A stretch of 64,000 nucleotides of DNA from Paracyclopina nana (taxonomy: Eukaryota > Arthropoda > Copepoda > Cyclopoida > Cyclopettidae), in NCBI GenBank assembly GCA_019096065.1, contig JAGUCH010000001.1, forward strand, positions 14,322,001 to 14,386,000. Direction: 5' to 3'. Made by a program: the position numbers and the translations under genes. The notes beneath the pieces are model-generated. The model saw only the letters and a program-made list of their open reading frames with translations, had not been told where the DNA came from and made no database searches. How positions within the stretch are numbered: position 1 is the first letter of the stretch; each line of letters begins with the position of its first letter. This document shows, piece after piece, positions 1,646-62,770 of this stretch.

Positions 1646-2263
1646 AAAATATTGTAAGAAGTCAGAATCAAAACTGTGCTTTAAAAAGCAACTAAATGCT
1701 GGCTCGGGATATTTCCGATGCTGTTTACTCCCTTCTTTGTGCACTTTCTTCTTTAAATGGCCTTTGAATGTAGCAGGCAGCAAAATCTAAGGCTCCATTA
1801 AAACTAATGGAAGCAAATTGTACTAAGCGAAAAAGCGATTGTAGCATTATAAGCAAATCGATATAAGACATTATTTTATATAATTCTAGATTTCTCGCAA
1901 GCTCAGATTGAAAAGCAATATTTAAACCATCTCCCTATTTTAGTAGATATGTTCGACTTAATTTCGACCTACCAAAAACAGCTGTCAAATCGTGACGCAT
2001 ATGAAGAGCTTCTGGAGTTATAGCTTAAAACAGCTCCTGAAGATCAAATCAATTTTTTACGTCTTGAAGCCTTTGAAGGTCTTTAAATAGTGGAATTACG
2101 TAACAGGCTTAGACTTTCGAATCGCCTTCACTCCTTGTAAATACAGGTAACAACAAATCTCTTGAATTCCGCGAAAACACCCATCTGTTAGGCAAACTTC
2201 GCTGTGCTACCTGCCATTTGACGTAAACTTTAAAAACGTAAATACGGTTTCATTTCAGAGATC

Positions 2264-3355
2264 ATGGATAGCTACTCAGACTCGTATCAAAATGGCGGAT
2301 CTCGCCGCGAAATGGACTTTCAGCGGCTGGCTCAAAGCATTGGAACCAACATCCAGAAAATCCTGCAAAATGGTGCGAGTATTAAATTATTCAATTTCGA
2401 TGGGTTTTATTTCGTTCCTCTTTCAGTTTCCTCTATGCAAAGGATGATAGCACAGATTGGCACCCCTCAAGACAACCAACAGCTCCAGAATCAACTGTAA
2501 ATAGTATTTGCTTATGGTGTCTGTCAACGTTGATGATTAATGGCTTCTTTTCCAGACATCAAATTCAACACTACACTGGACAGCTGGCGAAAGACACTTC
2601 CACTCACTTGCATGAATTGTCCAATGGGGTGTCAGGCCTTAGCCAAACTGAGCAAAGGCAATGGAGGCTGCAGCGAGAGAGACTGCACAACGACTTTACC
2701 AAGGCCTTGAACAGCTTCCAAGCAGCTCAGAGGACCGCTGCTCAAAAGGAGAAGGAGGTCTTAAAGAAGGCCAAGGGAGCCGCTGGCTTCGGTGGCCTTG
2801 CTGGTCCTGGTGGCCAGAATCTGATTGATATCGAAGAAGGCCAAAGAAACCAGGACGACCAGCAGAGACAACGACAAATGATGATGCAGGAAGAGTATGA
2901 CATCGAGCAGTTGCAGGAGAGAGAACGATCCATCAGACAGCTTGAGGTGATCTATTAAAATGCATGAAAAAGATTGTGGGAGACCACTACTTTCGTTTTT
3001 GACATTTTCAGTCTGACATTTTGGATGTGAACACGATTTTCAAAGATTTGGCAACTTTGGTGCACGACCAAGGAGAGGTCATTGACTCCATCGAGGCTAA
3101 TGTGGAATCCACTCATGTTCGAGTTCAGGAGGGAACCGAACAGCTGAGACAAGCTGAAACTTACAAGGTAATATGCTTCTTCAAATGTGTCACGTGTCCC
3201 TCTCTCACTCGTTATTTACTGCACGAATCCATATCTTAATTTATGTTCTTTTTTGTGTTTAGAACAAGGCAAGAAAGAAAAAGTTAATTCTTGCCCTTAT
3301 TCTCATCATTGTCCTAGCCATTATCATTGGAATCATTGCATGGCAAGCTAATTAG
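2264..3355 (+). CDS. Syntaxin-7/12-like Qa-SNARE
   Basis: Endosomal-type Qa-SNARE for membrane fusion. The exons are 2264-2372, 2427-2496, 2556-2946, 3012-3167 and 3263-3355, which sum to 819 nt and give 272 residues. The N-terminal part reads FQRLAQSIGTNIQKILQN, then IGTPQDNQQLQNQL, as in the syntaxin-7/12/Pep12 group. It is followed by helical Habc-type sequence. The SNARE motif starts around IRQLESDILDVNTIFKDLA and carries the zero-layer glutamine in LVHDQGEVID. The C-terminus is a basic KARKKK patch followed by one membrane span of about 20 residues rich in Ile and Leu. The ATG at 2264 follows a 3' splice site, so the 5' UTR is split. A second, competing last exon lies downstream at 3466-3555. 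Introns are about 50-95 nt. The family call is firm. Whether it is the syntaxin-7 or syntaxin-12/13 orthologue is not decided. Confidence 0.93.
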
Positions 3356-3465
3356 AAAGACGTGAGTTTCCATTTATTTTAGCATGCGCTGACAATTTTT
3401 ATTGTTATGGGGTGCGTTCGGCTCCTTGAGGTAATTGGTTAAAGATTCCAACTTCCTCTTTGCAG

Positions 3466-3555
3466 ATGATGAAGAGAAAACGACTATGCTACATTGTGGC
3501 AACCCTGTTGGTCCTTCTTGTCATAGTGGTCTTTTTTATCTGGCTCTCATCGTAG
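3466..3555 (+). CDS. Alternative last exon of the syntaxin gene (second membrane anchor)
   Basis: After the acceptor cctctttgcag this 90-nt exon opens in phase 0, the same phase as the exon at 3263-3355. It encodes a KRKR basic patch, then a hydrophobic span (LCYIVATLLVLLVIVVFFIW), then a stop. Joined to the exon ending at 3167 it would give a 271-residue syntaxin with a different tail anchor. The first anchor exon is followed directly by a GTGAGT donor (3363). This exon could therefore also be 3' UTR of the main form. The coding potential is seen in the sequence; the alternative use is inferred. Confidence 0.7.
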   Translation: MMKRKRLCYIVATLLVLLVIVVFFIWLSS

Positions 3556-3747
3556 ATTACAAGCATTTGAAATAAGCTTATTGAAAATCCCCCATAAAAC
3601 TATGTTAAACTGAAACGTTTCATTTCCTGTGATTGTAACACCTCCTCCCTATGTTTATCTGGCTTCAGAAAACACTCTTAGAGCTACGATAGATATCGAA
3701 ATATATTACTATATCAGCTTCTACAATACCAGGGTTAGTCGTCAATT

Positions 3748-5431
3748 TCAGCCTGAGGCCAGGCAGGGCTGCTGATTGTACACGAGATTGAATCCTCTGT
3801 TTCCAGACGAAGCTGCTTCTTCTGTCCCGTCAGTGATGACCCCAACCACAAAGGGCTTTGTGAAAGTTGTCACTGCTCCAACTGCTGCGGTACAAGTTCC
3901 CACCGTGGCTGTGGATTTGCAATAGCCCAAGACAACTCCACAGAAACGATCTTTGGCATAGAGCATATCTGCATTGGTTCCTGTTTCTGACCCGCCAGCT
4001 ATAACTAAGTAGTCCGTCTTGCACAGGGAATCTCCGTACATAACATCAGTCGCTACGAAAGCTGTCTTATCGGTGATTGGAGCCCCAGCTCCACTTAATG
4101 TAAAGGAAAAGTTGTCAACTTGTGAGTATCTAATTCCACAAAATCCACTTTCGATGCGAATGCAAATGGCGTAGTTCAAATTGGCCAGATGATTTGGCAG
4201 AGTGCTCGTGACGTCTGTTTTGTAATTGAAGCTCTGCATTCGGCCAGAGCTTTCCATGTGATATTGCAAGCAACCGTTGGGAGCTGAAACCATTGATATT
4301 AGCGAGATTCTACCAATTTTTTTAAAATCTTACCCAATACTGGACTGGAGCATTCATACTGAAATATTCTGATTTGCCATTGCCTTGAAGCAGTTGATGT
4401 AACTCCAGTATCCATAATGACTGAAAGCTGACTTGGTCCACTGGAAGGTGTAATTGAGTAAATAACTGCAATTTCATAATTAGCTCTTATGTCCTAGATG
4501 AACAATTAGTAATATTGGTCTAACCATGTTGGCCAGTGTTCAAGCCACAAATTTGAGGAACTTGTGATCCTCCAGTTGCCAAAAAGTAATCGGTAGCGCA
4601 AAATCCCTTTGAATCAGGAGGAGCCAGATCGAACATATCAAAGTGTAATTTCACCTAAACAAATCTTTTTATATTAAGAAATGCATTCGCAAAATTAGGT
4701 AACTTTACCTGGCAAATATCATCATTGACGCGGTTTATAATGAGATTGCACACTCTTGTGGGTGTGACAGGATTGGAAAAGTAGGTACCGTTTTCTGCCG
4801 TCGAAGAGCCACACTGATATTCAACTGCAAATATGAATGCATGAATTGTACTATACTATACACGGTAGTCACTTTTTGGTTTCGAATGCTTACATTGACA
4901 ACACACACCAAATCCTCCAGCACAAACTCCATTGGCCAATCCACCCTTATCGGCACAGTCTAGCTTTGTGTAGCAAGTGCCATTTCCCCCAGAATCTGTC
5001 GCACAAATCTCATTTCTGAATCTCACTATTGTGAAAAGACTGAAAACTGAAACCAATCCTCAATGATTTAAAATGCTTGGTGATATAAATTTCGTGATTA
5101 GTTACATCTGCTATCTCTTTTTGCATCGATTTCCTGGCCCAAGTCGTTGGTAAAATTCAGCTGATGATTGAATACTGGCCTCCTTTTCAACGCCTTAACT
5201 CTTCTTTTCTTCACTTTGATAAATGGAGATGAAAGAACCTTGAAGTTGAAAAAAATTAATAAAGCAATTTATATAAAATATGGCAGGTATGCCTACTTTA
5301 CGCGGCCCGTCAGTTCTCCGGAGCACACTCGACCAAATGTTCCTTGTTAATTGCTGATTATGGCTAAAGCAATTATGCTGGTGAAAGAAAGTGAGAGCCA
5401 GTGCAAAATTGATGAATTGAAACACCTTCAT
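3748..5431 (-). CDS. Secreted cysteine-rich CUB-domain protein
   Basis: Seven exons on the minus strand: 5431-5302, 5174-5106, 5046-4894, 4824-4709, 4654-4525, 4465-4334 and 4283-3748. They sum to 1266 nt and 421 residues, with every junction in phase. The ATG at 5431 starts a signal peptide (MKVFQFINFALALTFFHQHN). Next comes a Cys-rich segment with the pattern EICATDSGGNGTCYT and GGFGVCC. A CUB-like region follows, starting YQCGSSTAENGTYFSNP, with CNLIINRVNDDICQ and FDMFDLAPP. The long last exon is a second CUB-like module (ICIRIESGFCGIRYSQ; ending FNLVYNQQPC). I associate this domain plan with an arthropod family that is expanded in crustaceans. It has no recognised catalytic residues, and its ligand is unknown. 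It lies tail-to-tail with the syntaxin gene. Confidence 0.88.
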
Positions 5432-5925
5432 TGTGACCGGTTCACCAAAGAACTGAGGACGAAGTACGATCTTGGACGTCTCTAACCATGATACTTCGAA
5501 TCAAGATAATTTTTGCGCTCTGGTGCTTCATCACCTTACGAAATTGATTCAATATCCAGATATCAACCGCTAGTTTCTTTTTTTTATTATTGTTGACAAG
5601 AATGTTTCATAACGCTATATATAAGCATATAAACCTTATGATAATTGTAATATAATTGTGTGCTAGTAAGAAATTTTGAGCAACAAACTTGGAAAAACAT
5701 ATCAAGCCAAAAAGTGTGAAGGGTGTTGTTTCATATAGTACAAATTGTTTTAGTTGGGCACATTAGGCCGTTTACTATATTGATTAATTATTGCTAATGT
5801 TCCCGGACTTGCGCGCGTTTGGAGGGCATCAGTGTTAATGCTCAGGACGGATTTTTGCTATCTAATCACAGTGATGCTGGTGATTTGCTCATTCCTTTGT
5901 ACACTTTATCAACTATGAGTTGCTT
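5432..5925. other. Intergenic: CUB gene promoter side and zinc-finger gene 3' end
   Basis: About 490 bp of AT-rich sequence lie between two minus-strand genes. It must contain the 3' UTR of the zinc-finger gene and the upstream region of the CUB gene. I see no coding sequence, clear TATA box or repeat. Confidence 0.6.
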
Positions 5926-8900
5926 CTAATTGGTTTCAGTCTCAGCATTAGTAGTGGTAGTTGTGTGATTGCTTGCGTTGTCTTCCTCCTCTTCATCGTC
6001 GTTTTCGTCATCACCATCGTCATCAAAGTCTTCATCATGACCGCTATTCTTCTCGTCGTGATTGGCCTTGTGATCCATGGTAACGATGTGGCCCGAATAT
6101 TGCTTTTTCTCGACAAATACCTCGCAAGGTTTGCACCACTTGTACGTAATCTTGTGCTTCAGTTTGCAATGTTTGACTATTCCCTCTAGCTTCATCTTGA
6201 TTTGGCAGACTGGACACTCTTTCATGGCTGCTGCTATAAGCTCAGGTTTGTCCGAGCTACCACTGTGGTTCATCTTCATGTGTCGTTCAAGAAACTCTTT
6301 CATGATGTGATCGCCACAAATATGGCATTCGGCATACTCTTGTCCATCCTCCAGGTCCTCATCGAGAAGGTCTTCATCTTCGTCCATTTGGTGGCCTAGA
6401 TACTTGACATTGCTTTCCATGTTCACCATGTCCTCCACTTCATCGGAATTGACGTTGGGATGTGCGTTTTTCAAGTGCCTCTTGTAGTTAGAGTAGGATA
6501 CCATGTAGCCGCAAATCCCGCACTTCCTTCTGGGATGCTTAAACTCCTTGCCCAGTAAGCTCTCAAGCTTGTTCTTGGACGTGTTCGACCTCGACCTCGA
6601 ATCCTCGTCGAGGCTGTCCTCGTTGTCATCGGTATTAATAACCAAGGCCGAGGCTCCGTCCATATCCATGTAGTCCGATGCGTCAACAGAATCGTGATTG
6701 TTTTCCGTTGCATCCATCATGCCAATGGAGGCCGCAGAGGCAACGCAAGTCAGTCTGTGGTCCTCGTAGGTGTCATTAGGCACGAATTTTCGGCACTTGT
6801 GGCAAAACTTGTACTTGATCTTGTGCCTCAACTTGATATGTCTGGCCAGGTTTTTGTAAGTGATTTGAATGCCGCATACGGGACAAGTTTCTTTAGGCAT
6901 CAGTGTGTCTTTGGATGGTGCCAGGGCAGACGTGGAGGGGGTCATCTTTGCGGGGGAGCCTCCAGCTGCGCTAGGATTGCCAGCACCTTTGCGCTTGCGT
7001 GAAATCAGCTGAGAAGTGCCATCGTCTATAGCTTTAACGACCATGCCACCAGATGATCCTCCCCAAGCAGCCAGGGATCCTATTGGAGTGAGGCTGGCAC
7101 GTTCCTTGCGGTCAATAATTATTGGGCTGCCGTTCTCGATCCTGATTTTCTGTCCCATGTAGGGAGGCTCAGCGTGAAATCTAAATAGCAACAATGCATG
7201 AAGCATTAAATGAGGTCATAACTCTATGAAGATATTTTTAGCTACCTGCGATGCTCCTCTTGCTCGTGGATTGGCAAGTACTCGCGACAACATCTGCAGA
7301 ACAGAGCGTTGTGCATCTCCGACATGTGCTTGAAAAACCACTTGATATTGGACCATTGGCCACAGAGCTCACACTGCTTGCGAACTTTCCCCGACTTGAC
7401 TCTTCCAGCGTTGTCCAATTCAACTCCCTTGGGATCAGCAATGACGACCCCAGAGGAAGATCGGCCAACTTGAGTGGGACTAGAAACAACCTCTTGAACA
7501 TTAGCGTCAGGGTAATGAAGTGGCCTCGAGTCAACTTCGGCATGAACTGAGGTCATGTGATCGGTGATTTCGCTGGGAGAGCCCGAGATGTGGAAACAAG
7601 TCAAACAGGCATAACCAAAGTTGTTGATAAGGCCAATGTACGGTCTTTGCTCCTCCTTAAAGCTGACCAAATGAGCGCGGAGGTGCTTGATGGGTGGAAC
7701 TGCGAACCACTTCGAACACACCTGACATTGATAGCTTTCGCGAGCGTTTACCCCCATATGCTTTCGAGTCAGTTTTGCAACGACATGTTCAAGCTTATTA
7801 TCCATATTCATTGAGGGTGTGGACATGGAAGGGGAACTGGTCGGGATAGAATTAGCCTTAGTCGGAGGAGGGCTCTCACCGTTGAGCAAAGACTGCAAAA
7901 ACGAAGTCGGAGGAATAGGTGGTGGATGATGAAGAAGGGGCGGGGTAGATGTGATTGGAGGCGTGGCAATCACACTCGGAGGCGGAGCTGAGGATTTCAG
8001 CATGCTCTGCATCAGCATGGCGCTCAACTGACTGGTTAAAAAGGTATTGTTGTTGTTGTTGTTCATGTGCTTCTTGTTGTTATTCGCAGTCAGGATCCAC
8101 AACAGAAGGGCGTGGCCTGTGGCAGGAGGCGAGACCGAGTGAACGATAGTCAAATGTGGGACGAGCTCTAGCAGAGGCAATGTCGTGGTACATAATGGAC
8201 AGGTGGTATTGTCAAGTGGGACAGTCAATCTATGCCATTCCTGTAATGTATATAATAGTTTAAAGTTAGCTTTTTCTGTGCACTTGACTACATGTGTAAC
8301 CACAAATCATGAACTGATGAAACTTTAAAGTCGCTAATTAAAATGACCTGCAGATGTTTCGCCTCGTCACTGGAGGGAATGACGATTTCGCATAATCCAC
8401 ATTGCACGAGGTTATGATTGACCACCTCCTTGAGACGATCCGGCGTGAGGAGTTGCTGAGGGTGCAGCTGCTTTTTTCGGCCTCGCTTAGAAGAGGCCAG
8501 GGTGAGCGAAGGTGGTGGAGGTGGACTGGGTCCTTTGGAATTATTGCTAGTATCCGGCCCTTCCATATCTTCATAGCATTGGATATCCGGAGTGGTGACT
8601 AATTTCGTGACTTCCTGCTCTCGGGGATCCATTGTTAAGTCGAGCGATTCGCTCTTTTCTGCCTTTCCGTTGGAGGCCGACCCGATTTTGCAATTCATGC
8701 GATGCGAGGCCATATCGAGGGTCGTTGGCAGCTTGCCCCAGCAAACAACGCAAATGTGTACTGATCTGCAACAAGCACAGGATACGTTGCATGGAGGCAT
8801 TTAACAATGGCGCAACTTAAATCACGAGAGCCGCTGATTAGGTACTTACTTTTTGAGCGGATTCTGCCCTGCGAGGTCAGCAGTGCTGTTGCTTTTCGAG

Positions 8901-36111: not shown

Positions 36112-36586
36112 GTGCGTTTTCCCAGCAGAAGAAGTACAAACTGAAGAAATGCCAATTCATAACAATAATGATGATGAAGAAGAAGTGAGTGAAGTCCAAG
36201 GATTATTTGTTAGGAGCAACTCAAATTAATTAATTACTGCCTACAAGCAAGAGAAGAAATAGTGGTTTTACTACATTCTACAATGATGACAGATGTATCA
36301 GATATTCAGATGTGTTTTTTCTCCTTATGTGAGGGTTTTTTAAATACACCGCCTCCTCTACTGATCTCTACAAAACAAGATTTGAAATTAATTAGTTGTC
36401 AGTCTCCTCAGGGAAAAAAACTTGTCAAAAGGCTAAAAACCTTCCTACCTAACTAACCTACAAATTAACTAACCTCAGAGTGTAATGTAGTTACTAAGCT
36501 TCCCCAACAGCAAAAAACACTTGAAATGTCTTCATCAAATATATTGGGTTTGAAAATGTGACAGTTTGAAGTTGGAACAAGGCCGC
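36112..36586. other. 3' flank of the collagen gene
   Basis: About 475 bp of AT-rich sequence between the collagen stop and the left end of the repeat structure. It is probably 3' UTR plus spacer. No gene or repeat is seen. Confidence 0.5.
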
Positions 36587-36600
36587 GTCTAAAAGCTGCG

Positions 36601-36710
36601 CCGACCCGCACCAACCCGCACCGACCCGCACCGACCCGCACCGACCCGCACCAACCCGCACCAACCCGCACCAACCCGCACCAAGCCGCACCAACCCGCA
36701 CCATACCACA
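36601..36710 (-). repeat. Left 10-bp repeat run (unit TGCGGGTCGG on minus)
   Basis: Eleven ten-base units of CCRACCCGCA type; the last, CCATACCACA, is degenerate. The G-rich strand is the minus strand. It is the inverse of the run at 43491-43670. Confidence 0.9.
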
Positions 36711-36879
36711 CAAACCAAAAAAAACACAATAAAAAGCAAACTAAACATAGTTAAAGCACTTTATTAGTAGCAAGCTAAAGCTTAAAGGCACAACTGGCCA
36801 TGAATAAAGCCATTTATCAAAAATATCTAGAAATGAATAAATTCAAGTGGAAATGTCAGGTGCTAGCTATCATGAACTT

Positions 36880-37870
36880 AAAACTTCAAATTTTAAAAGT
36901 GGTAACTGCAATGCCTGGCCAAGAAACAGCCATTTCTGCTCTCCTATGTAGCGAAGCAAAACTTCAAGTGCAATTTCAAACCCGCGCCAAGAAGTAACTT
37001 TTTTCAAAGTGGTTACTGCAAAAGTTAGCTGCTAGCATGACCTTTCTGGCACAACTGGCCTTTTTGTCCTTTGCAAGAAAAGTTACTGCAGTGGCTGGCC
37101 AAGAAACAGCCATTTCTGCTCTCCTATGTAGCGAAGCAAAACTTCAAGTGCAATTTCAAACCCGCACCAAGAAGTGACTTTTCAAAGTGGTTACTGCAAA
37201 AGTTAGCTGGTAGCATGACCTTTCTGGCACAAGTGGTCTTTTTGGCCTTTGCAAGAAAAGTTACTGCAGTGGCTGGCCAAGAAACAGCCATTTCTGCTCT
37301 CCTATGTGCTCAAAACTTCAAGTGCAATTTCAAACCCGCGCCAAGAAGTAACTTTTTCAAAGTGGTTACTGCAAAGTTAGCTGGTAGCATGACCTTTCTG
37401 GCACAACTGGCCTTTTTGGCCTTTGCAAGAAAAGTAACTGCAATGCCTGGCCAAGAAACAGCCATTTCTGCTCTCATATGTAGCAAAGCAAAACTTCAAG
37501 AGCGATTTCAAACCCGCGCCAAGAAGTAACATTTTTCAAAGTGGTTATTGCAAAAGTTAGCTGGTCGCATTACCTTTATTGCACTACTGGACTTTTTGGC
37601 CTTTGCAAGCCAAGTTACTGCAGTGGCTGGCCAAGAAACAGCCATTTCTGCTCTCCTATGTAGACAAAACTTCAAGAGCGATTTCAAACCCGCGCCAAGA
37701 AGTAACTTTTTCAAAGTGGTTACTGCAAAAGTTAGCTGGTAGCATGACCTTTCTGGCACAAGTGACCTTTTGGCCTTTGCAAGAAAAGTTACTGCAGTGG
37801 CTGGCCAAGAAATAGCCATTTCTGCTCTCCTATGTAGCGATGCAAAACTTCAAGTGTGATTTCAAACCTC
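36880..37870 (-). repeat. Left array of ~180-bp tandem repeat (minus orientation)
   Basis: About five to six copies of a unit containing AGAAACAGCCATTTCTGCTC and AGTTAGCTGGTAGCATGACC. This is the reverse complement of the unit in 38045-42490. Copies here are more diverged and vary in length. Confidence 0.85.
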
Positions 37871-38044
37871 AATCTGCTTTGCATTAAGCCTTATTATGGC
37901 ACAGCTAAAGTCAACATTGTAAGTCCAACTTTTTGAGGTAGGACTTATGAAGTCCAATCAGCAGTTGGGCCTAGAGATGCCTTAAAGTAATTTTTTGACT
38001 CTAATAGTTCCCAACTGCCTCAGCAAAAGTTAGGCCTCAAGAAA

Positions 38045-41000
38045 AATCCTGCTTCGCTACATAGGAGAGCAGAAATGGCTGTTTCTCGGCCAGCCACTCC
38101 AGTAACTTTTCTTGCAAAGGCCAAAAAGGCCAGTTGTGCCAGAAAGGTCATGCTACCAGCTAACTTTTGCAGTAACCACTTTGACAAAAGTTACTTCTTG
38201 GCGCGGGTTTGAAATCGCACTTGAAGTTTTGCTTCGCTACATAGGAGAGCAGAAATGGCTGTTTCTTGGCCAGCCACTGCAGTAACTTTTCTTGCAAAGG
38301 CCCAAAAGGCCACTTGTGGCAGAAAGGTCATGCTACCAGCTAACTTTTGCTGTAACCATTTTGAAAAAAGTTACTTCTTGGCGCGGGTTTGTAATCGCTC
38401 TTGAAGTTTTGCTTCGCTACATACTGATTGAGTCATCAAAACCGGGTAAGCGCTATGGCCAATTCGGCCGGTTTATTTAGTGCAGCAGTGCAGCCAGCGC
38501 ATTGCGTTTCTCATGACTCAATCGGTAGGAGAGCAGAAATGGCTGTTTCTTGGCCAGCCACTGCAGTAACTTTTCTTGCAAAGGCCAAAAAGACCACTTG
38601 TGCCAGAAAGGTCATGCTACCAGCTAACTTTTGCAGTAACTACCTTGAAAAAAGTTACTTCTTGGCGCGGGTTTGAAATTGCACTTGAAGTTTTGCCTCG
38701 CTACATAGGAGAGCAGAAATGGCTGTTTCTTGGCCAGCCACTGCAGTAACTTTTCTTGCAAAGGTCAAAAAGGCCAGTTGTGCCAGAAAGGTCATGCTAC
38801 CAGCTAACTTTTGCAGTAACCACTTTGAAAAAAGTTACTTCTTGGCGTGGGTTTGAAATTGCACTTGAAGTTTTGCTTGCTACATAGGAGAGCAGAAATG
38901 GCTGTTTCTTGGCCAGCCACTGCAGTAACTTTTCTTGCAAAGGCCAAAAAGGCCACTTGTGCCAGAAAGGTCATGCTACCAGCTAACTTTTGCAGTAACC
39001 ACTTTGAAAAAGTTACTTCTTGGCGCGGGTTTGAAATTGCACTTGAAGTTTTGCTTTGCTACATAGGAGAGCAGAAATGGCTATTTCTTGGCCAGCCACT
39101 GCAGTAACTTTTCTTGCAAAGGCCAAAAAGGCCACTTGTGCCAGAAAGGTCATGCTACCAGCTAACTTTTGCAGTAACCACTTTGAAAAAAGTTACTTCT
39201 TGGCGCGGGTTTGAAATTGCACTTGAAGTTTTGCTTTGCTACATAGGAGAGCAGAAATGGCTGTTTCTTGGCCAGCCACTGCAGTAACTTTTCTTGCAAA
39301 GGCCCAAAAGGCCACTTGTGGCAGAAAGGTCATGCTACCAGCTAACTTTTGCAGTAACCATTTTGAAAAAGTTACTTCTTGGCGCGGGTTTAAAATCGCT
39401 CTTGAAGTTTTGCTTCGCTACATAGGAGAGCAGAAATGGCTGTTTCTTGGTCAGCCACTGCAGTAACTTTTCTTGCAAAGGCCAAAAAGGCCACTTGTGC
39501 CAGAAAGGTCATGCTACCAGCTAACTTTTGCAGTAACTACTTTGAAAAAAGTTACTTCTTGGCGCGGAGTTTGAAATTGCACTTGAAGTTTTGCTTCGCT
39601 ACATAGGAGAGCAGAAATGGCTGTTTCTTGGCCAGCCACTGCAGTAACTTTTCTTGCAAAGGTCAAAAAGGCCAGTTGTGCCAGAAAGGTCATGCTACCA
39701 GCTAACTTTTGCAGTAACCACTTTGAAAAAAGTTACTTCTTGGCGTGGGTTTGAAATTGCACTTGAAGTTTTGCTTCGCTACATAGGAGAGCAGAAATGG
39801 CTGTTTCTTGGCCAGCCACTGCAGTAACTTTTCTTGCAAAGGCCAAAAAGGCCACTTGTGCCAGAAAGGTCATGCTACCAGCTAACTTTTGCAGTAACCA
39901 CTTTGAAAAAGTTACTTCTTGGCGCGGGTTTGAAATTGCACTTGAAGTTTTGCTTTGCTACATAGGAGAGCAGAAATGGCTATTTCTTGGCCAGCCACTG
40001 CAGTAACTTTTCTTGCAAAGGCCAAAAAGGCCACTAGTGCCAGAAAGGTCATGCTACCAGCTAACTTTTGCAGTAACCACTTTGAAAAAAGTTACTTCTT
40101 GGCGCGGGTTTGAAATTGCACTTGAAGTTTTGCTTTGCTACATAGGAGAGCAGAAATGGCTGTTTCTTGGCCAGCCACTGCAGTAACTTTTCTTGCAAAG
40201 GCCCAAAAGGCCACTTGTGGCAGAAAGGTCATGCTACCAGCTAACTTTTGCAGTAACCATTTTGAAAAAAGTTACTTCTTGGCGCGGGTTTAAAATCGCT
40301 CTTGAAGTTTTGCTTCGCTACATAGGAGAGCAGAAATGGCTGTTTCTTGGTCAGCCACTGCAGTAACTTTTCTTGCAAAGGCCAAAAAGGCCACTTGTGC
40401 CAGAAAGGTCATGCTACCAGCTAACTTTGCAGTAACTACTTTGAAAAAAGTTACTTCTTGGCGCGGGTTTGAAATTGCACTTGAAGTTTTGCTTCGCTAC
40501 ATAGGAGAGCAGAAATGGCTGTTTCTTGGCCAGCCACTGCAGTAACTTTTCTTGCAAAGGCCAAAAAGGCCACTTGTGGCAGAAAGGTCATGCTACCAGC
40601 TAACTTTTGCAGTAACCACTTTGAAAAAGTTACTTCTTGGCGCGGGTTTGAAATTGCACTTGAAGTTTTGCTTCGCTACATAGGAGAGCAGAAATGGCTG
40701 TTTCTTGGCCAGCCACTGCAGTAACTTTTCTTGCAAAGGCCAAAAAGGCCACTTGTGCCAGAAAGGTCATGCTACCAGCTAACTTTTGCAGTAACCACTT
40801 TGAAAAAAGTTACTTCTTGGCGCGGGTTTGAAATCGCACTTGAAGTTTTGCTTCGCTACATAGGAGAGCAGAAATGGCTGTTTCTTGGCCAGCCACTGCC
40901 GTAACTTTTCTTGCAAAGGCCAAAAAGGCCACTTGTGCCAGAAAGGTCATGCTACCAGCTAACTTTTGCAGTAACCACTTTGAAAAAGTTACTTCTTGGC

Positions 41001-42490
41001 GCGGGTTTGAAATCGCACTTGAAGTTTTGCTTCGCTACATAGGAGAGCAGAAATGGCTGTTTCTTGGCCAGCCACTGCAGTAACTTTTCTTGCAAAGGCC
41101 AAAAAGGCCACTTGTGCCAGAAAGGTCATGCTACCAGCTAACTTTTGCAGTAACCACTTTGAAAAAAGTTACTTCTTGGCGGGTTTGAAATTGCACTTGA
41201 AGTTTTGCTTTGCTACATAGGAGAGCAGAAATGGCTGTTTCTTGGCCAGCCACTGCAGTAACTTTTCTTGCAAAGGCCCAAAAGGCCACTTGTGGCAGAA
41301 AGGTCATGCTACCAGCTAACTTTTGCAGTAACCATTTTGAAAAAAGTTACTTCTTGGCGCGGAGTTTAAAATCGCTCTTGAAGTTTTGCTTCGCTACATA
41401 GGAGAGCAGAAATGGCTGTTTCTTGGTCAGCCACTGCAGTAACTTTTCTTGCAAAGGCCAAAAAGGCCACTTGTGCCAGAAAGGTCATGCTACCAGCTAA
41501 CTTTTGCAGTAACTACTTTGAAAAAAGTTACTTCTTGGCGCGGGTTTGAAATTGCACTTGAAGTTTTGCCTCGCTACATAGGAGAGCAGAAATGGCTGTT
41601 TCTTGGCCAGCCACTGCAGTAACTTTTCTTGCAAAGGCCAAAAGGCCACTTGTGCCAGAAAGGTCATGCTACCAGCTAACTTTTGCAGTAACCACTTTGA
41701 AAAAGTTACTTCTTGGCGCGGGTTTGAAATTGCACTTGAAGTTTTGCTTCGCTACATAGGAGAGCAGAAATGGCTGTTTCTTGGCCAGCCACTGCAGTAA
41801 CTTTTCTTGCAAAGGCCAAAAAGGCCACTTGTGCCAGAAAGGTCATGCTACCAGCTAACTTTTGCAGTAACCACTTTGAAAAAAGTTACTTCTTGGCGCG
41901 GGTTTGAAATCGCACTTGAAGTTTTGCTTCGCTACATAGGAGAGCAGAAATGGCTGTTTCTTGGCCAGCCACTGCAGTAACTTTTCTTGCAAAGGCCAAA
42001 AAGGCCACTTGTGCCAGAAAGGTCATGCTACCAGCTAACTTTTGCAGTAACCACTTTGAAAAAGTTACTTCTTGGCGCGGGTTTGAAATCGCACTTGAAG
42101 TTTTGCTTCGCTACATAGGAGAGCAGAAATGGCTGTTTCTTGGCCAGCCACTGCAGTAACTTTTCTTGCAAAGGCCCAAAGGCCACTTGTGGCAGAAAGG
42201 TCATGCTACCAGCTAACTTTTGCAGTAACCACTTTGAAAAAGTTACTTTTTGGCGCGGGTTTGAAATCGCACTTGAAGTTTTGCTTCGCTACAAAGGAGA
42301 GCAGAAATGGCTGTTTCTTGGCCAGCCACTGCAGTAACTTTTCTTGCAAAGGCCAAAAAGACCACTTGTGCCAGAAAGGTCATGCTACCAGCTAACTTTT
42401 GCAGTAACCACTTTGAAAAAAGTTACTTCTTGGCGCGGGTTTGAAATCGCACTTGAAGTTTTGCTTCGCTACAAAGGAGAGCAGAAATGT
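38045..42490 (+). repeat. Main array of ~179-bp tandem repeat (~24 copies)
   Basis: Units of 179-180 bp start near TTCGCTACATAGGAGAGCAG and contain ATGGCTGTTTCTTGGCCAGC and GGTCATGCTACCAGCTAACT. Copies are highly similar. Blocks of about five units (~900 bp) recur: the variant CTTGGTCAGCC appears near 39451, 40351 and 41427. This shows a higher-order repeat. The array is interrupted by a small MITE at 38424-38525 and ends where another MITE is inserted (42493). Confidence 0.93.
38424..38525. mobile_element. 102-bp MITE inserted in a satellite monomer
   Basis: The monomer sequence GCTACATAGGAGAGC is split after TA. The insert has inverted ends CTGATTGAGTCAT and ATGACTCAATCGG and is followed by a second TA, so TA is the target-site duplication. 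The empty site is visible in every neighbouring monomer. Confidence 0.88.
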
Positions 42491-42492
42491 AA

Positions 42493-42642
42493 CAATACTG
42501 TCCTGATGACGAGTCCATATAGGGTTTTTCGCTCATGAGTAGTCAAATGAAAGATCACCGAGTGGCGAAGCCACGAGTGATCTGGAATTTTACTACGAAT
42601 GAGCGAAAAACCCTATATGGACGAGTCATCAGGACAGTATTG
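42493..42642. mobile_element. Palindromic MITE, ~150 bp, at the end of the array
   Basis: Near-perfect inverted arms of about 44 bp begin CAATACTGTCCTGATGAC and run to GGGTTTTTCGCTCAT. The core (GATCACCGAGTGGCGAAGCC) is itself palindromic and resembles the core of the element at 440-589. The insertion breaks a monomer just after GCAGAAATG. Confidence 0.82.
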
Positions 42643-43009
42643 ACATTTTTGTCAGCTTCGTGAGGGTTAAAAGTCCCAGAAGTACTGTTAAATGCTAAAA
42701 ATTTATTAATTTACCAATTAAATTGGCCTTAAAAACGATAGCTCGTTTGCAGGTAGAACTTTGCGGTCAATCGCGCGCGCGCATCTCCAGTAAGAGCTCA
42801 GCACTTGCAGGGTAACCAGATATTAGGAGGGATTTTTACTATTTAGCCAGAATGTTTCCTAAAAGCAACCAATCAACAAGTTTGAATAAAAACTGATTGA
42901 GAATGTTTCAGATATTTAATGTTCTTCATTAGGATTGATTTGGAAGGTTATCTTTGAACGCAATGTAATCTTATTTAAATCTGCCATCATAATTTTTAAA
43001 CTCAATGAG

Positions 43010-43078
43010 TTCTGATAGTACATTGGAAGAGTGCCGACCTTCCACTCAGCCGACCTAGGTTCGAATCCCAGTAAAACC
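43010..43078 (+). tRNA. tRNA-like sequence followed by T-run (pseudogene or SINE head)
   Basis: A perfect box B (GGTTCGAATCC) is preceded at tRNA-like spacing by a weak box A (TAGTACATTGGA). Soon after comes a T-run that could end Pol III transcription. The acceptor stem pairs at only about half its positions and no sound anticodon stem forms, so a functional tRNA is unlikely. Confidence 0.4.
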
Positions 43079-43114
43079 TTTTTTTTTAATTGAAGAAGAA
43101 CTCTCAAGTTGCCA

Positions 43115-43176
43115 ACCGTACAATAATGGATATTATTTCTTCACATGTGATGAAAAAAAGGTCATTATTGTACGGT
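43115..43176. repeat. Short hairpin with 14-bp arms
   Basis: ACCGTACAATAATG and CATTATTGTACGGT are inverted copies about 34 bp apart. This could be a tiny MITE or a structural hairpin next to the tRNA-like sequence. Confidence 0.6.
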
Positions 43177-43263
43177 AGATGCGAGCGCACGCCAAATCTC
43201 AGCAAAATACAAGGATTTTCGCTTCACTGCCGTATGTAGTGAACCCACCGCCAAGTTGACAAA

Positions 43264-43420
43264 AATGGCTGTTTCTTGGCCAGCCACTGCAGTAACTTTT
43301 CTTGCAAAGGCCAAAAAGGCCACTTGTGCCAGAATGGTCATGCTAGCAGCAGTAACCACTTTGAAAAAAGTTACTTCTTGGTGCGGGTTTGAAATTTCTT
43401 TTGAAGTTTTGATTAAAAGC
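43264..43420 (+). repeat. Single diverged ~179-bp repeat copy near the right end
   Basis: It carries ATGGCTGTTTCTTGGCCAGC and AAGTTACTTCTTGGTGCGGG, with a deletion in the middle (GCTAGCAGCAGTAACC). It is isolated from the main array by ~600 bp of other sequence, which includes the tRNA-like piece. Confidence 0.85.
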
Positions 43421-43490
43421 TCATGCTGGCAGAAGCCTTTTTTAAGCTTTTTTTGTATTCTATTGGTTTGTGCGGTATGGTGCCGGTTTT

Positions 43491-43670
43491 TGTGGGTCAG
43501 TGCGTGTCGATGCGTGTCGGTGCGGCTTGGTGCGGGTCAGTGCGGGTCGGTGCGGGTCGGTGCGGGTCGGTGCGGGTCGGTGCGGGTCGGTGCGGGTCGG
43601 TGCGGGTCGGTGCGGGTCGGTGCGGGTCGGTGCGGGTCGGTGCGGGTTGGTGCGGGTCGGTGCGGGTTTT
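43491..43670 (+). repeat. Right 10-bp repeat run (TGCGGGTCGG)n, ~18 copies
   Basis: Ten-base units, nearly perfect from 43531 to 43660. Frames through it give Cys/Gly/Arg/Val- or Pro/Thr-rich peptides that should not be read as genes. It is the inverse of the run at 36601-36710. Confidence 0.93.
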
Positions 43671-43674
43671 AGAC

Positions 43675-46600
43675 AACCCGTCAATCACTTTTTCCTGTTT
43701 GTTCTCTTCAACTTTTTAGAAGTGCACACAAATGCCAAGTCTAGGTGTCAAAATCAAAACGTTTGTGGGCCCAAGAAAGTTTTTTATAGCAAAGTTTACC
43801 AGCCCACGACAATTCTCACATGCTTTTAACGCTAGGAAATCGTCTTCTTTATTGGGAACATTGCTTACATAGCACGAGAGCTCAGCCGTTTTACAAACAA
43901 GTTGGCAGATATCAAAAACGCGGCCAAACTATCTTGATGCTATCCATACTTGGCTCAAGGTGCGTTTTTTCTGCATATCTAATATTGGGTGCGAGAGTGA
44001 CTCGATAAAATAAGTTTTTGCCGGATTCCAAGCACACTGAGGCTAATTAGCCCTATAAGCCCAGAAAAATGCCTGCTTTTATCAAATGCTATAAATCCTG
44101 CGTACAGACTGGGTAAAATTTTATTCCAACTTCCCTTCTACTGAGAATGATAAACGATTTCATTTTTATGCTTTTAAAACCATAAAAATGCTAGTTAGTG
44201 CTCATGCTCAGAGTCTCCCTGGATTGAAATTCAAAATGCATTAAGCACTCTACAGCACATACTAATGGCCACATTTTTTAGCTGCATACCCACAGTGCAT
44301 TTCTTGGACTCATCTTTTTATGACATTTTTGCTCTCGCACAGCTGCCGTCTGCTGGCCAAGCACAAAAAGGGGTCAAATCCTTAGATTTCTTCACTTGGT
44401 AATGGAGAATGATGTGGCCACTTATTTTCTTGGCTTCTTCTCTTCAGTACGTACGTATAAATGGCTGTCATGCCTTTTGGCACCATTTCCCCCGAGTTGA
44501 CTGTGAAAAAAAGCCGATATCATCAGTAGCAGTGGCATCTTTATAATCAGAAGTTTTGTCCCCTTCTGGATGGTGTATAGCACCACCCGTCTTCATGTCC
44601 CCACCAGCATCAATAAAACACACAACTAGAAGGTTGGTGGTTTTTTTTTTGTTAAGACAGAGACAAAGTGGGTAGGAAACATGGAACAATCAGATAATAT
44701 TTGAAGTATGCATATTGCCATATGTTGAGAAGTCTCGAGAGGATTTATTAAAAGCAAGCAAAATATGTTTTGGGTCTCACAGTCGCACCAATCGAAGTTT
44801 CGGGCTCATTTTTCTTCATGTCACCTCAGAATTCTTTTGACTTTTCGTGTTGCATTATAGCATTTCCTTTGAGCAATGTTTGCCATTTGTTTCTCGGTCA
44901 AAAGGCCAAATTTTGGCCAATCACCTCGGTTCCACGAACAACTTTGCTTTTCCACAAGCCATTTTGCAAAATATTACATCGTTTTCACATTATAAAACAT
45001 TAAAAACGACTAAAAGTGCATTTCAGGTGGTAACAACCAAAAAAACAAAGGAGCTTTTGGCTTGCCCCTGAGGGTGTGAAATATCTTGAGAAAGTGTTGC
45101 ATAAATAACCTCATTTTAGCATGCTAAATATTTGCCTTGAAAATTGGCGTGAAATTAAGGGTCAACGAAAAATCAACAAAGTGTTGAAAGGCGCGGATGG
45201 CACAGTGGGCGCAAAGCCCTGACCTTTTTGCATTTTTGACGACCTTTGAGAATGCCTAGAATTCCCACTGTGCTCGAATACATGTACAGCAGCAGCTTCT
45301 AACGAAGTTAAAGTTGCAGAAAACAATCGTGACTTGGCAAGTAAGTTCATACATATTGTTTATTCTACGAATTGGAACTCAAGTCTAAAAGGTCTCTCCC
45401 ATGCTCACACATCCAAGCAAGTTAGAAACAATTATTCAATTCCGGGCGTGAAAGAAAACAGTTTTACAGCAACTTGCAGTCAACGGCAGCAACATTAAGC
45501 TCACGCCAGACAGGGCAATCCACAGAGCAACGAGTTGGAGATTTTCGACCTTGTAAAACTGAGTAATTATGCTTTTTGCTTGGTGCCTGGGGAATTAGAG
45601 CAAAGTTCTCCTGGTAACTCCACTCAGTCATAGCGTTTGGTAAATAAACAGCGCGCAAGCTGGAGCTGTTTTTCCGTTTCAAGATAGCGCACGTCTTTTA
45701 TTTTATTTGGAGTGATTCATGAACGATTTTCGTAATTTGCATTTCTGATCCTTACAGGTAAGAGAAACGCATTTTGATAGCTTTTAAAAAAGCGGTTCAG
45801 TGTGAAACGTTGGTGGTGTTTACCGAGCCAATTATGACCCAGGGTCTTTTGCAACGGTGTTATTGGAGAGAATCAGCTCTGTGTTTAGTGGTACGTAGTA
45901 GTAGAGCAAAAAGTTTTTTACTGTGCCATTCCTCGTTAAAAGCCATGTGTCAAATACAGCCGCTTGGCAGGAAAGTAATGGACCCTCTTACTGTTCGTAA
46001 ACAGTCACTGTTCATTATTTCTTTCTTCCCTCTTCTTCTTTTCAAAAAGTTTCTTCTTTACATTTTTGCCACAAATTGACTGGATGGGTTAGAGAGGGAG
46101 CCCCATTTGAAAAATGGCCAATTTTGACTTATGAGCCAATAAAGCGCAGCACCTTATCCAAGGTTACGAAGGACCAGAGCTTCCAAAAAATAGGCAACTT
46201 GAAATTTTTTGAACAGTACACTGCAGTACTTTTTATTTGGCTTCAAATATCTTTTAAAGGCATGTTGACATTCAAATTTCAAAACAACATATAGTTCCAC
46301 CTGTTTTGTCTGGATTAGCTGCTCTGAAATGTCCAAAACAGCAGCTGTGAAGTCAAGGCAGTTCGAGAGGAAACCCTTAGCTAGCTTAGAATGACCCAGT
46401 TCATGCCTTATTCTGACATATTGGAGATTAAACACTTCTCACATGTCTCTGCAACATTGTAATACTTCCCTAATACTCATATCTCCCTTCCACAAGAAGG
46501 AATTGGAGTAGCATTTAGTGACAAACTAGCTCCTTGTTTTCTTGGCAAATTGGCAAGGCACTTACTTATTAATTCTTCTGTAACACAAATCAAAGCAGAG

Positions 46601-61294: not shown

Positions 61295-61950
61295 TTTGTT
61301 ACATTTCTATATGAGGTTTGCGAATCATGATAAAGTCGACTACCAGTTTGATTTAACTTAAAAGGTCTTTCACCTCTGTGCAAAGCGTTGCAAAGCATTG
61401 CAAGCGCGATGCACGCTCAAACCCCACTAAACAAAAGATCCGTAGTTTTTCCCTGCTAACTCCAGTTGGAAATTCAATTGTGTCCAAATCAATTTATTTT
61501 GACATACATCAATTCGTCTTTAACCATAGAGTACTCACATGTTATTTTTTTTGCTTTATCATAATTAGTCTTCAAGATATTTAATTTTAAAATATTCAAA
61601 TTGGCGACAAATTGACATACTCAAAGTCTTAAAAATTTTTTTCTTAATCTTTAATTTTTGAATTGATATGAATTTTTTAGCTAATAATTCTGTCATTCAT
61701 CGTTAATTTTTTTAAAAAAACCTAAAAATCATTATTACTATTTTTTGTAAGTTTAATTACAATTTTTTAGATTAAATTGACACAAAATTGGGATAATTTT
61801 TTGTCCCTATCGATATGTTTCATTTTTACTAAAAATTGTTTAAAAGGAATGTATATTAATGTCAATTAGTTTACATACTTAATTGTGAATTTTTTTAGGA
61901 TTTACCAATAAGTCTGACTAAAAAAATATTCCGGTTTATATCACCACTCT

Positions 61951-62770
61951 CCCGATTTCGTAGGTAGCTATTTTATCTGGACTCTGCCACTTTCGCCAAT
62001 AGCAAATCTGTCCCCTCTCAATCACAACGAAATACACTAAGCTCTAATGTCCCACAGTCAATTGGCCCAAGTTTGACCTAAACAAAAATGGTATACTTTT
62101 TCCCCACTAATTCCCCGTTCTCCCGATTTCGTAGGTAGCTATTTTATCTGGACTCTGCCACTTTCGCCAATAGCAAATCTGTCCCCTCTCAATCACAACA
62201 AAATACACTAAGCTCTAATGTCCCACAGTCAATTGGCCCGAGTTTGACCTAAACAAAAATTGTATACTTTTTTCCCACTAATTCCCCGTTCTCCTGATTT
62301 CGTAGGTAACTATTTTATCTGGACTCTGCCACTTTCGCCAATAGCAAATCTGTCCCCTCTCAATCACAACGAAATACACTAAGCTCTAACGCCCAATAGT
62401 CAATTGGCCCGACTTTCACCTAAACAAAAATGGTATACTTTTTCCCCACTAATTCCCCATACTCCCGATTTTGTAGGTAGCTATTTTATCTGGACTTTGC
62501 CACTTTTGCCAATAGCAAATCTGTCCCATCTCAATCGCCACAAATTAGCACCAATGTCCAACTGTCAATTGGCTCGACTGTCAAGTATAAAAAATTGCAT
62601 ACTTTTTCCTCACTAATTCCCCGTACTCCCGATTTCGTAGGCAGCTATTTTATCTGGACTTCGCCACTTTTGCCAATAGCAAATCTGTCCCATCTCAATT
62701 GCCACAAAATACAAGTAGCACTAATGTCCAACAGTCAATTGGCTCGAGTTTGAAGTAAACAAATTATCAC
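61951..62770. repeat. Five-copy tandem repeat, period ~171 bp
   Basis: Units start CCCGATTTCGTAGGTAGC at about 61951, 62122, 62293, 62464 and 62628. Spacings are 171, 171, 171 and 164. The first three copies are close to each other and the last two more diverged. Each contains GCCAATAGCAAATCTGTCCC and ends near CTTTTTCCCCACTAATTCCC. The overlapping ORF at 62404-62616 is not a gene. Confidence 0.93.

Follow-up and report, generated by a model that had tools for sequence, protein, structure and literature searches.

A foldback transposon family with two tiers of tandem repeats in its arms, most likely Mutator-like, in the copepod Paracyclopina nana

Introduction

Why should two different kinds of tandem repeat follow each other in the same order, and in mirror image, on the two sides of a short stretch of DNA? 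This question is raised by a locus of the copepod Paracyclopina nana that lies in a stretch of 64,000 nucleotides (assembly GCA_019096065.1, contig JAGUCH010000001.1, positions 14,322,001 to 14,386,000 of the forward strand), referred to here as the window. A sequence-only reading of the window had described positions 36587–43674 as a mobile foldback element, the arms of which have expanded by repeat amplification. Our analysis, extended to the genome assembly (92 Mb, ten contigs), supports this proposal: the locus carries one copy of a non-autonomous foldback transposon, which most likely works like a Mutator-like element (MULE). It looks like a new family within a known kind, foldback elements being already known from flies and worms. 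Tandem arrays that a repeat finder reports separately here belong to a transposon, and a two-tier repeat design with a clear series of copies marks the family.

Structure of the window copy

The mirrored structure of the window copy (L011) was confirmed using Tandem Repeats Finder and the sequence itself, the two arms being oppositely oriented around a short core. From the outside inwards, both sides show a TTTTAGAC-type end, an array of 10-mers, an A/T-rich spacer and units of about 180 bp (Table 1). The right end carries TTTTAGAC and the left end carries GTCTAAAA, its reverse complement; the motif of the spacers reads TTGGTTTGTG on the right and the reverse complement of TTGGTTTGTG on the left. 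The ends first proposed, 36587 and 43674, are better placed 6 bp further out, at 36581 and 43680: on each side six further bases are conserved, and at other copies the duplications start directly next to these bases. These outer 6 bp are unlike each other (GGCCGC on the left, AACCCG on the right), and each is conserved between copies. The units of the right arm fall into two arrays, 38050–38423 (2.1 copies) and 38526–42489 (22.1 copies). Canonical G-quadruplex patterns occur within the 10-mers, with 11 overlapping patterns on the right and five on the left G-strand. Rfam returned nothing at its gathering score across the window.

Copies in the genome

A tip-pattern search of the genome gave 29 exact matches for the left tip and 25 for the right tip. 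When one mismatch was allowed, these numbers rose to 41 and 39, with 20 and 45 matches for the reversed-pattern controls; one-mismatch tips were therefore counted only if they were paired or followed by 10-mers. Eight of the 41 left tips (the one-mismatch ones having no partner) and four of the 39 right tips were left out as chance matches, and L040, L041 and L043 are outside the analysed set. Exact tips, together with tips with one or two mismatches, define 30 paired-tip copies of 509–15488 bp, in addition to nine lone tips (three left and six right).

The same terminal order recurs across these copies: the arms are mirrored in 26 of the 30 pairs (the 30 include the 509-bp copy, which is outside this examination). 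In 20 of the 22 copies that were cut out, the left units lie on the minus strand and the right units on the plus strand; the further mirrored copies are L044, L058, L059, L060 and two partly read copies. The 10-mers are found inside both tips in all 22 copies examined, and the inverted partner covers 74–99% of the element in 19 of the 22 (66% in L029, 15% in L037 and 16% in L039). The foldback class is defined by long inverted arms that consist of tandem repeats and enclose a short central part, and the family fits this definition.

Among the matches listed, the two kinds of repeat do not lead separate lives. A search with the first 601 bp of the 36587–43674 interval gave 456 matches; among the 150 top-ranked matches listed, 136 are in paired copies, 14 have a lone tip no more than 10 kb away and none is elsewhere. 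This distribution argues against two satellites meeting by chance, as the sequence-only reading had held from the shared order alone, and the opposite outcome, repeats occurring independently and never in mirror order, was not what we found. As a separate observation, L037 (C4:8181500-8183599) contains two oppositely oriented copies with 360 bp between them.

Target duplications and empty sites

If the element is mobile, its copies should be flanked by target-site duplications. Perfect duplications of 9–10 bp flank 22 of the 30 pairs, three pairs have a partial or doubtful duplication and five, among them the window copy itself, have none. In a first set of 23 pairs, 18 show a perfect 9-bp duplication, L021+L022 shows a perfect 10-bp one (by eye) and the flanks of L009 agree at seven of nine positions. 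Among six further pairs, C6:1337426, C2:9986482 and L060 have perfect 9-bp duplications, and L057 agrees at seven of nine positions. The duplication of L044 is doubtful by eye and was not counted as perfect. The 22 perfect duplications are 71% A+T, compared with 57% for the window.

We then searched for empty sites by joining the flanks of a copy with one target copy, which was tried for 20 copies. Two gap-free empty sites were obtained: for L009, in a neighbouring tandem unit (140 of 140 positions), and for L014+L015, in a repeat within the L024 core (124 of 133). Both are paralogous, not allelic. By its empty site, the seven-of-nine pair of L009 is shown to be a decayed duplication. The L014 flank belongs to a dispersed repeat with 40 matches, itself included. 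A third candidate, L032 against L019, was not counted (62 of 79 positions with three gaps). In the left flank of L002 and L009, a foldback copy has entered a tandem array whose period is about 185–191 bp.

Arms, cores and units

The arms are clearly variable in length: an arm holds from one to 60 full units, and the two arms of one copy are frequently very unequal, as in L021+L022 with 12 full units in one arm and 60 in the other. Most cores belong to one of three size classes (about 182, 555 and 770 bp) or are lacking, and some are odd; the 182-bp core of the group to which the window copy belongs matches, reversed, a section of the core in L019 and in L029. Some cores are at least 99% alike between copies, which suggests that the family has spread recently. 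The core of L025+L026 consists of foreign DNA, namely 53.9 copies of a 15-bp minisatellite and a stretch with inverted repeats in which a C-terminal fragment of a MULE protein lies.

Comparison of 563 full units from 21 copies gave a mean identity of 95.5% for units of the same arm, 95.0% for units from opposite arms of one copy and 94.0% for units from different copies. In the right arm of the window copy, identity is highest for units five apart (0.982, compared with 0.972 for adjacent ones), which fits the duplication of blocks. Allowing one mismatch, the terminal motif GGTGCGGGTTT is present in 429 of the 563 full units, oriented as in the outer 10-mers, and in none of the 563 on the other strand. 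For this motif, which was picked after inspection of the sequence, 20 of 5000 shuffled versions of one unit match as well on either strand.

Comparison with known systems

Drosophila FB elements have tandem-repeat arms that include 10-bp repeats; we liken FB/NOF to the present family by description only. A literature search found no paper on Rehavkus and NOF together. The systems below are compared on the basis of excerpts of the cited papers, and arthropod MULEs are also treated in PMC13359780.

The design is close to that of Tm1, Tetris and the MULEs of Aedes. Tm1, a Mutator/Foldback element of root-knot nematodes, shares composite arms with short tandem repeats, unlike tips (of 7 bp in Tm1) outside the inverted repeat, duplications of 8–10 bp (mostly 9 bp) and a majority of copies without transposase, some of them without duplications; it differs in its repeat of about 14 bp, in that the excerpt mentions no 180-bp tier, and in having one type of copy with a MULE transposase, whereas none was found here (PMC3169594). 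Tetris of Drosophila virilis is a foldback element with expanding tandem units of about 220 bp in its arms and duplications of 8–10 bp, for which, likewise, no transposase copy is known according to the part of the paper at hand; that part mentions no 10-mer tier, and satellite arrays of Tetris units exist apart from the element too (PMC4079207), unlike the units here, as far as the listed matches go. The Muta families of Aedes aegypti share long terminal inverted repeats (TIRs), 8–9 bp duplications, non-autonomous derivatives and, in ten of 12 long-TIR families, subterminal tandem repeats of 9–15 bp; they differ in that a transposase is present and that arrays of 180-bp units do not appear in the excerpt (PMC5225508). 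Rehavkus, compared by description only, shares 9-bp duplications, and its minisatellite precedes the 3′ TIR (PMC6446971). Galileo of Drosophila has long arms with expanding tandem units, of about 210 bp in one subfamily (PMC3573991, PMC3688188), but it belongs to the P superfamily and makes 7-bp duplications (PMC3573991).

Three traits point to the MULE superfamily as the most likely home of the present family. MULE duplications measure 8–11 bp (PMC6446971), mostly 9 bp, and the perfect ones here have 9–10 bp. Short subterminal tandem repeats lie within long TIRs, as in many insect MULEs. Unlike short tips stand outside the inverted repeat, as in Tm1-like (Phantom) MULEs. No autonomous copy is known, and the assignment draws on the length of the duplications, the design of the tips and the subterminal repeats.

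Search for a transposase

The genome contains six matches to PF10551, five of which are MULE domains over the Pfam cut-off. None of the six is in or near a copy, and the five MULE loci are at least about 199 kb from the nearest listed tip-like match. One genomic MULE frame, unlinked to the tips, matches PF10551 (1.3e-12), and FLYWCH is not reported for it at E values up to 0.1 in the part of the output read. A search with one MULE frame gave 21 matches, one of which, of 49–51 residues, is inside the L025 copy. We set aside the reading of this stretch as a remnant of the transposase of the family: it has inverted repeats of its own on its two sides, and short stretches like it are present at four sites that lie outside copies, one of them at a distance of about 8 kb. 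It would belong to a nested element. In nine translated stretches (eight cores and one L019 insertion), frames of at least 70 amino acids are either repeats or at most 100 amino acids long, those of minisatellites excepted. Since the MULE genes of this genome were not found between foldback tips, we infer a helper, and membership of the superfamily is probable rather than proven.

Proposed mechanism

A MULE-type transposase encoded elsewhere in the genome would recognize a GGTGCGGG-type motif, which is repeated in the terminal 10-mers and occurs about once in most 180-bp units. The transposase would pair both ends and then cut and paste the whole element. Unequal exchange or slippage among the units could lengthen or shorten the arms on each side independently, so that copies would differ mainly in their number of units. 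In Galileo, a binding assay placed transposase sites in the tandem repeats of the TIRs (PMC3688188, excerpt).

Since the tip-like motif is found in most units, oriented as in the outer array, one may wonder whether the 180-bp unit is a terminal recognition site that was captured and amplified. The arms would then have grown because they offer binding sites and cooperative pairing, under selection for mobility and not by neutral satellite drift. We put this forward as a speculation that is more probably wrong than right. A ten-contig assembly here offers a copy series of one foldback family, in which the arms hold one to 60 full units, two insertions have a paralogous empty site and many duplications are intact; both the expansion of the arms and the role of internal repeats as transposase sites can therefore be tested by comparing copies.

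Alternative explanations

Several observations weigh against a MULE-like foldback transposon. L039 and the first copy in L037 bear units on one side only, and the units of L057 are all in one orientation. To the three partial or doubtful duplications are added five of 30 pairs without a matching one: in the first set of 23 these are the window copy, L039 and, in L037, the 509-bp copy, and among the six further pairs L058 and L059. A MULE transposase of its own was found in no copy, with C2:9986482 unread over about 7.9 kb and C6:1337426 over 2 kb. The units are barely more alike within an arm than between copies (95.5% compared with 94.0%), and homogenization within copies is therefore weak. 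Finally, the shuffle control for GGTGCGGGTTT was not planned beforehand, the motif having been picked by inspection, and 134 of the 563 units differ from this motif at two to four positions.

The lack of a duplication at the window copy raises the question of whether this copy marks a rearrangement and not a simple insertion, either as a recombinant of two elements or through the loss of one duplication by local change. We regard the chances as even. Its flanks, TTGGAACAA and TCAATCACT, agree at only one of nine positions, and chimeric copies without matching duplications are known in Galileo (PMC3573991, excerpt). On the other hand, both ends are closest to one subgroup (L023, L012 and L009), which gives no sign that subgroups have mixed; no reciprocal flank pair was found among 33 left and 40 right distinct 9-mers; and the right flank closest to TTGGAACAA, with two mismatches, comes from L031, which itself has a perfect duplication.

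For the family as a whole, the element could be a foldback moved by a transposase of another superfamily, for instance of the P class as for Galileo. The foldback design does span more than one superfamily, Galileo combining a P-class transposase with internally repeated arms (PMC3573991, excerpt), and no helper with the tips of the family was found in the genome. We nevertheless consider this improbable: the perfect duplications are of 9 bp, with one of 10 bp, compared with the 7 bp of Galileo (PMC3573991), and it is in Aedes MULEs that subterminal repeats of 9–15 bp are accompanied by 8–9 bp duplications (PMC5225508).

Much less credible is that the sister copy L044 is an autonomous element, with its 378-amino-acid frame encoding the transposase. 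L044 has the same tips, units in both arms and this long frame; yet the frame sits in a stretch that has CACATTG at its ends and is bordered on either side by TCAT, 4-bp duplications are also seen at four short relatives that share these ends, and the four frames tried have no Pfam match at E values up to 1. We therefore disfavour this frame as the transposase. The nested stretch measures 6.1 kb (1964–8092 on the reverse strand), has inverted repeats of about 258 bp and short relatives scattered in the genome, and might be labelled 'Chapaev-like'.

Last, two unrelated satellites mirrored by chance, or an assembly artefact, can practically be dismissed, even though tandem arrays are prone to misassembly and the window copy lacks a matching duplication: 30 paired-tip copies, most of them mirrored and 22 with perfect duplications, two gap-free empty sites and the absence of any of the 150 listed matches (of 456) outside copies or lone-tip neighbourhoods all speak against these readings.

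Nested and neighbouring repeats

Two stretches of the window copy, 38427–38527 and 42490–43264, look like later insertions into it. The first is an inverted-repeat element of about 100 bp, flanked by TA and, by eye, similar to a miniature inverted-repeat transposable element. The second was used as a query of 775 bp and has full-length matches at 20 other sites in the genome; it has a palindrome of about 160 bp at one end and, by eye, TGT...ACA-like ends and a stretch resembling the B box of a transfer RNA (tRNA). ARAGORN found no tRNA anywhere in the window, this stretch included. A separate tandem array with a period of 171 bp (4.8 copies) is located at 61948–62763.

Table 1. Parts of the foldback copy in the window (positions of the window).
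Feature	Position	Strand	Remarks
Whole foldback element, window copy	36581..43680	+	7100 bp including nested insertions; paired conserved tips
Left tip GGCCGC-GTCTAAAA	36581..36594	+	29 exact genome matches; outer 6 bp absent from right tip
C-rich 10-mer array, 10.0 copies, G-strand on minus	36604..36703	-	Tandem Repeats Finder
Left A/T-rich spacer with reverse complement of TTGGTTTGTG	36704..36901	.	Units start at element position 322
Left arm of ~180-bp units	36902..37868	-	Tandem Repeats Finder: 36905-37868, ~174-180-bp, 5.4 copies
Core, ~182 bp	37869..38049	.	98-99% alike in L009, L012, L023
Right arm of ~180-bp units	38050..42489	+	Tandem Repeats Finder; 24 full units counted
Nested short inverted-repeat element inside one unit	38427..38527	.	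TA on both sides, by eye
Nested dispersed repeat in right arm	42490..43264	.	775-bp query matches; borders approximate
Last partial right-arm unit, beyond nested repeat	~43260..43414	+	
G-rich 10-mer array, 17.4 copies	43494..43667	+	Tandem Repeats Finder
Right tip TTTTAGAC-AACCCG	43667..43680	+	25 exact genome matches

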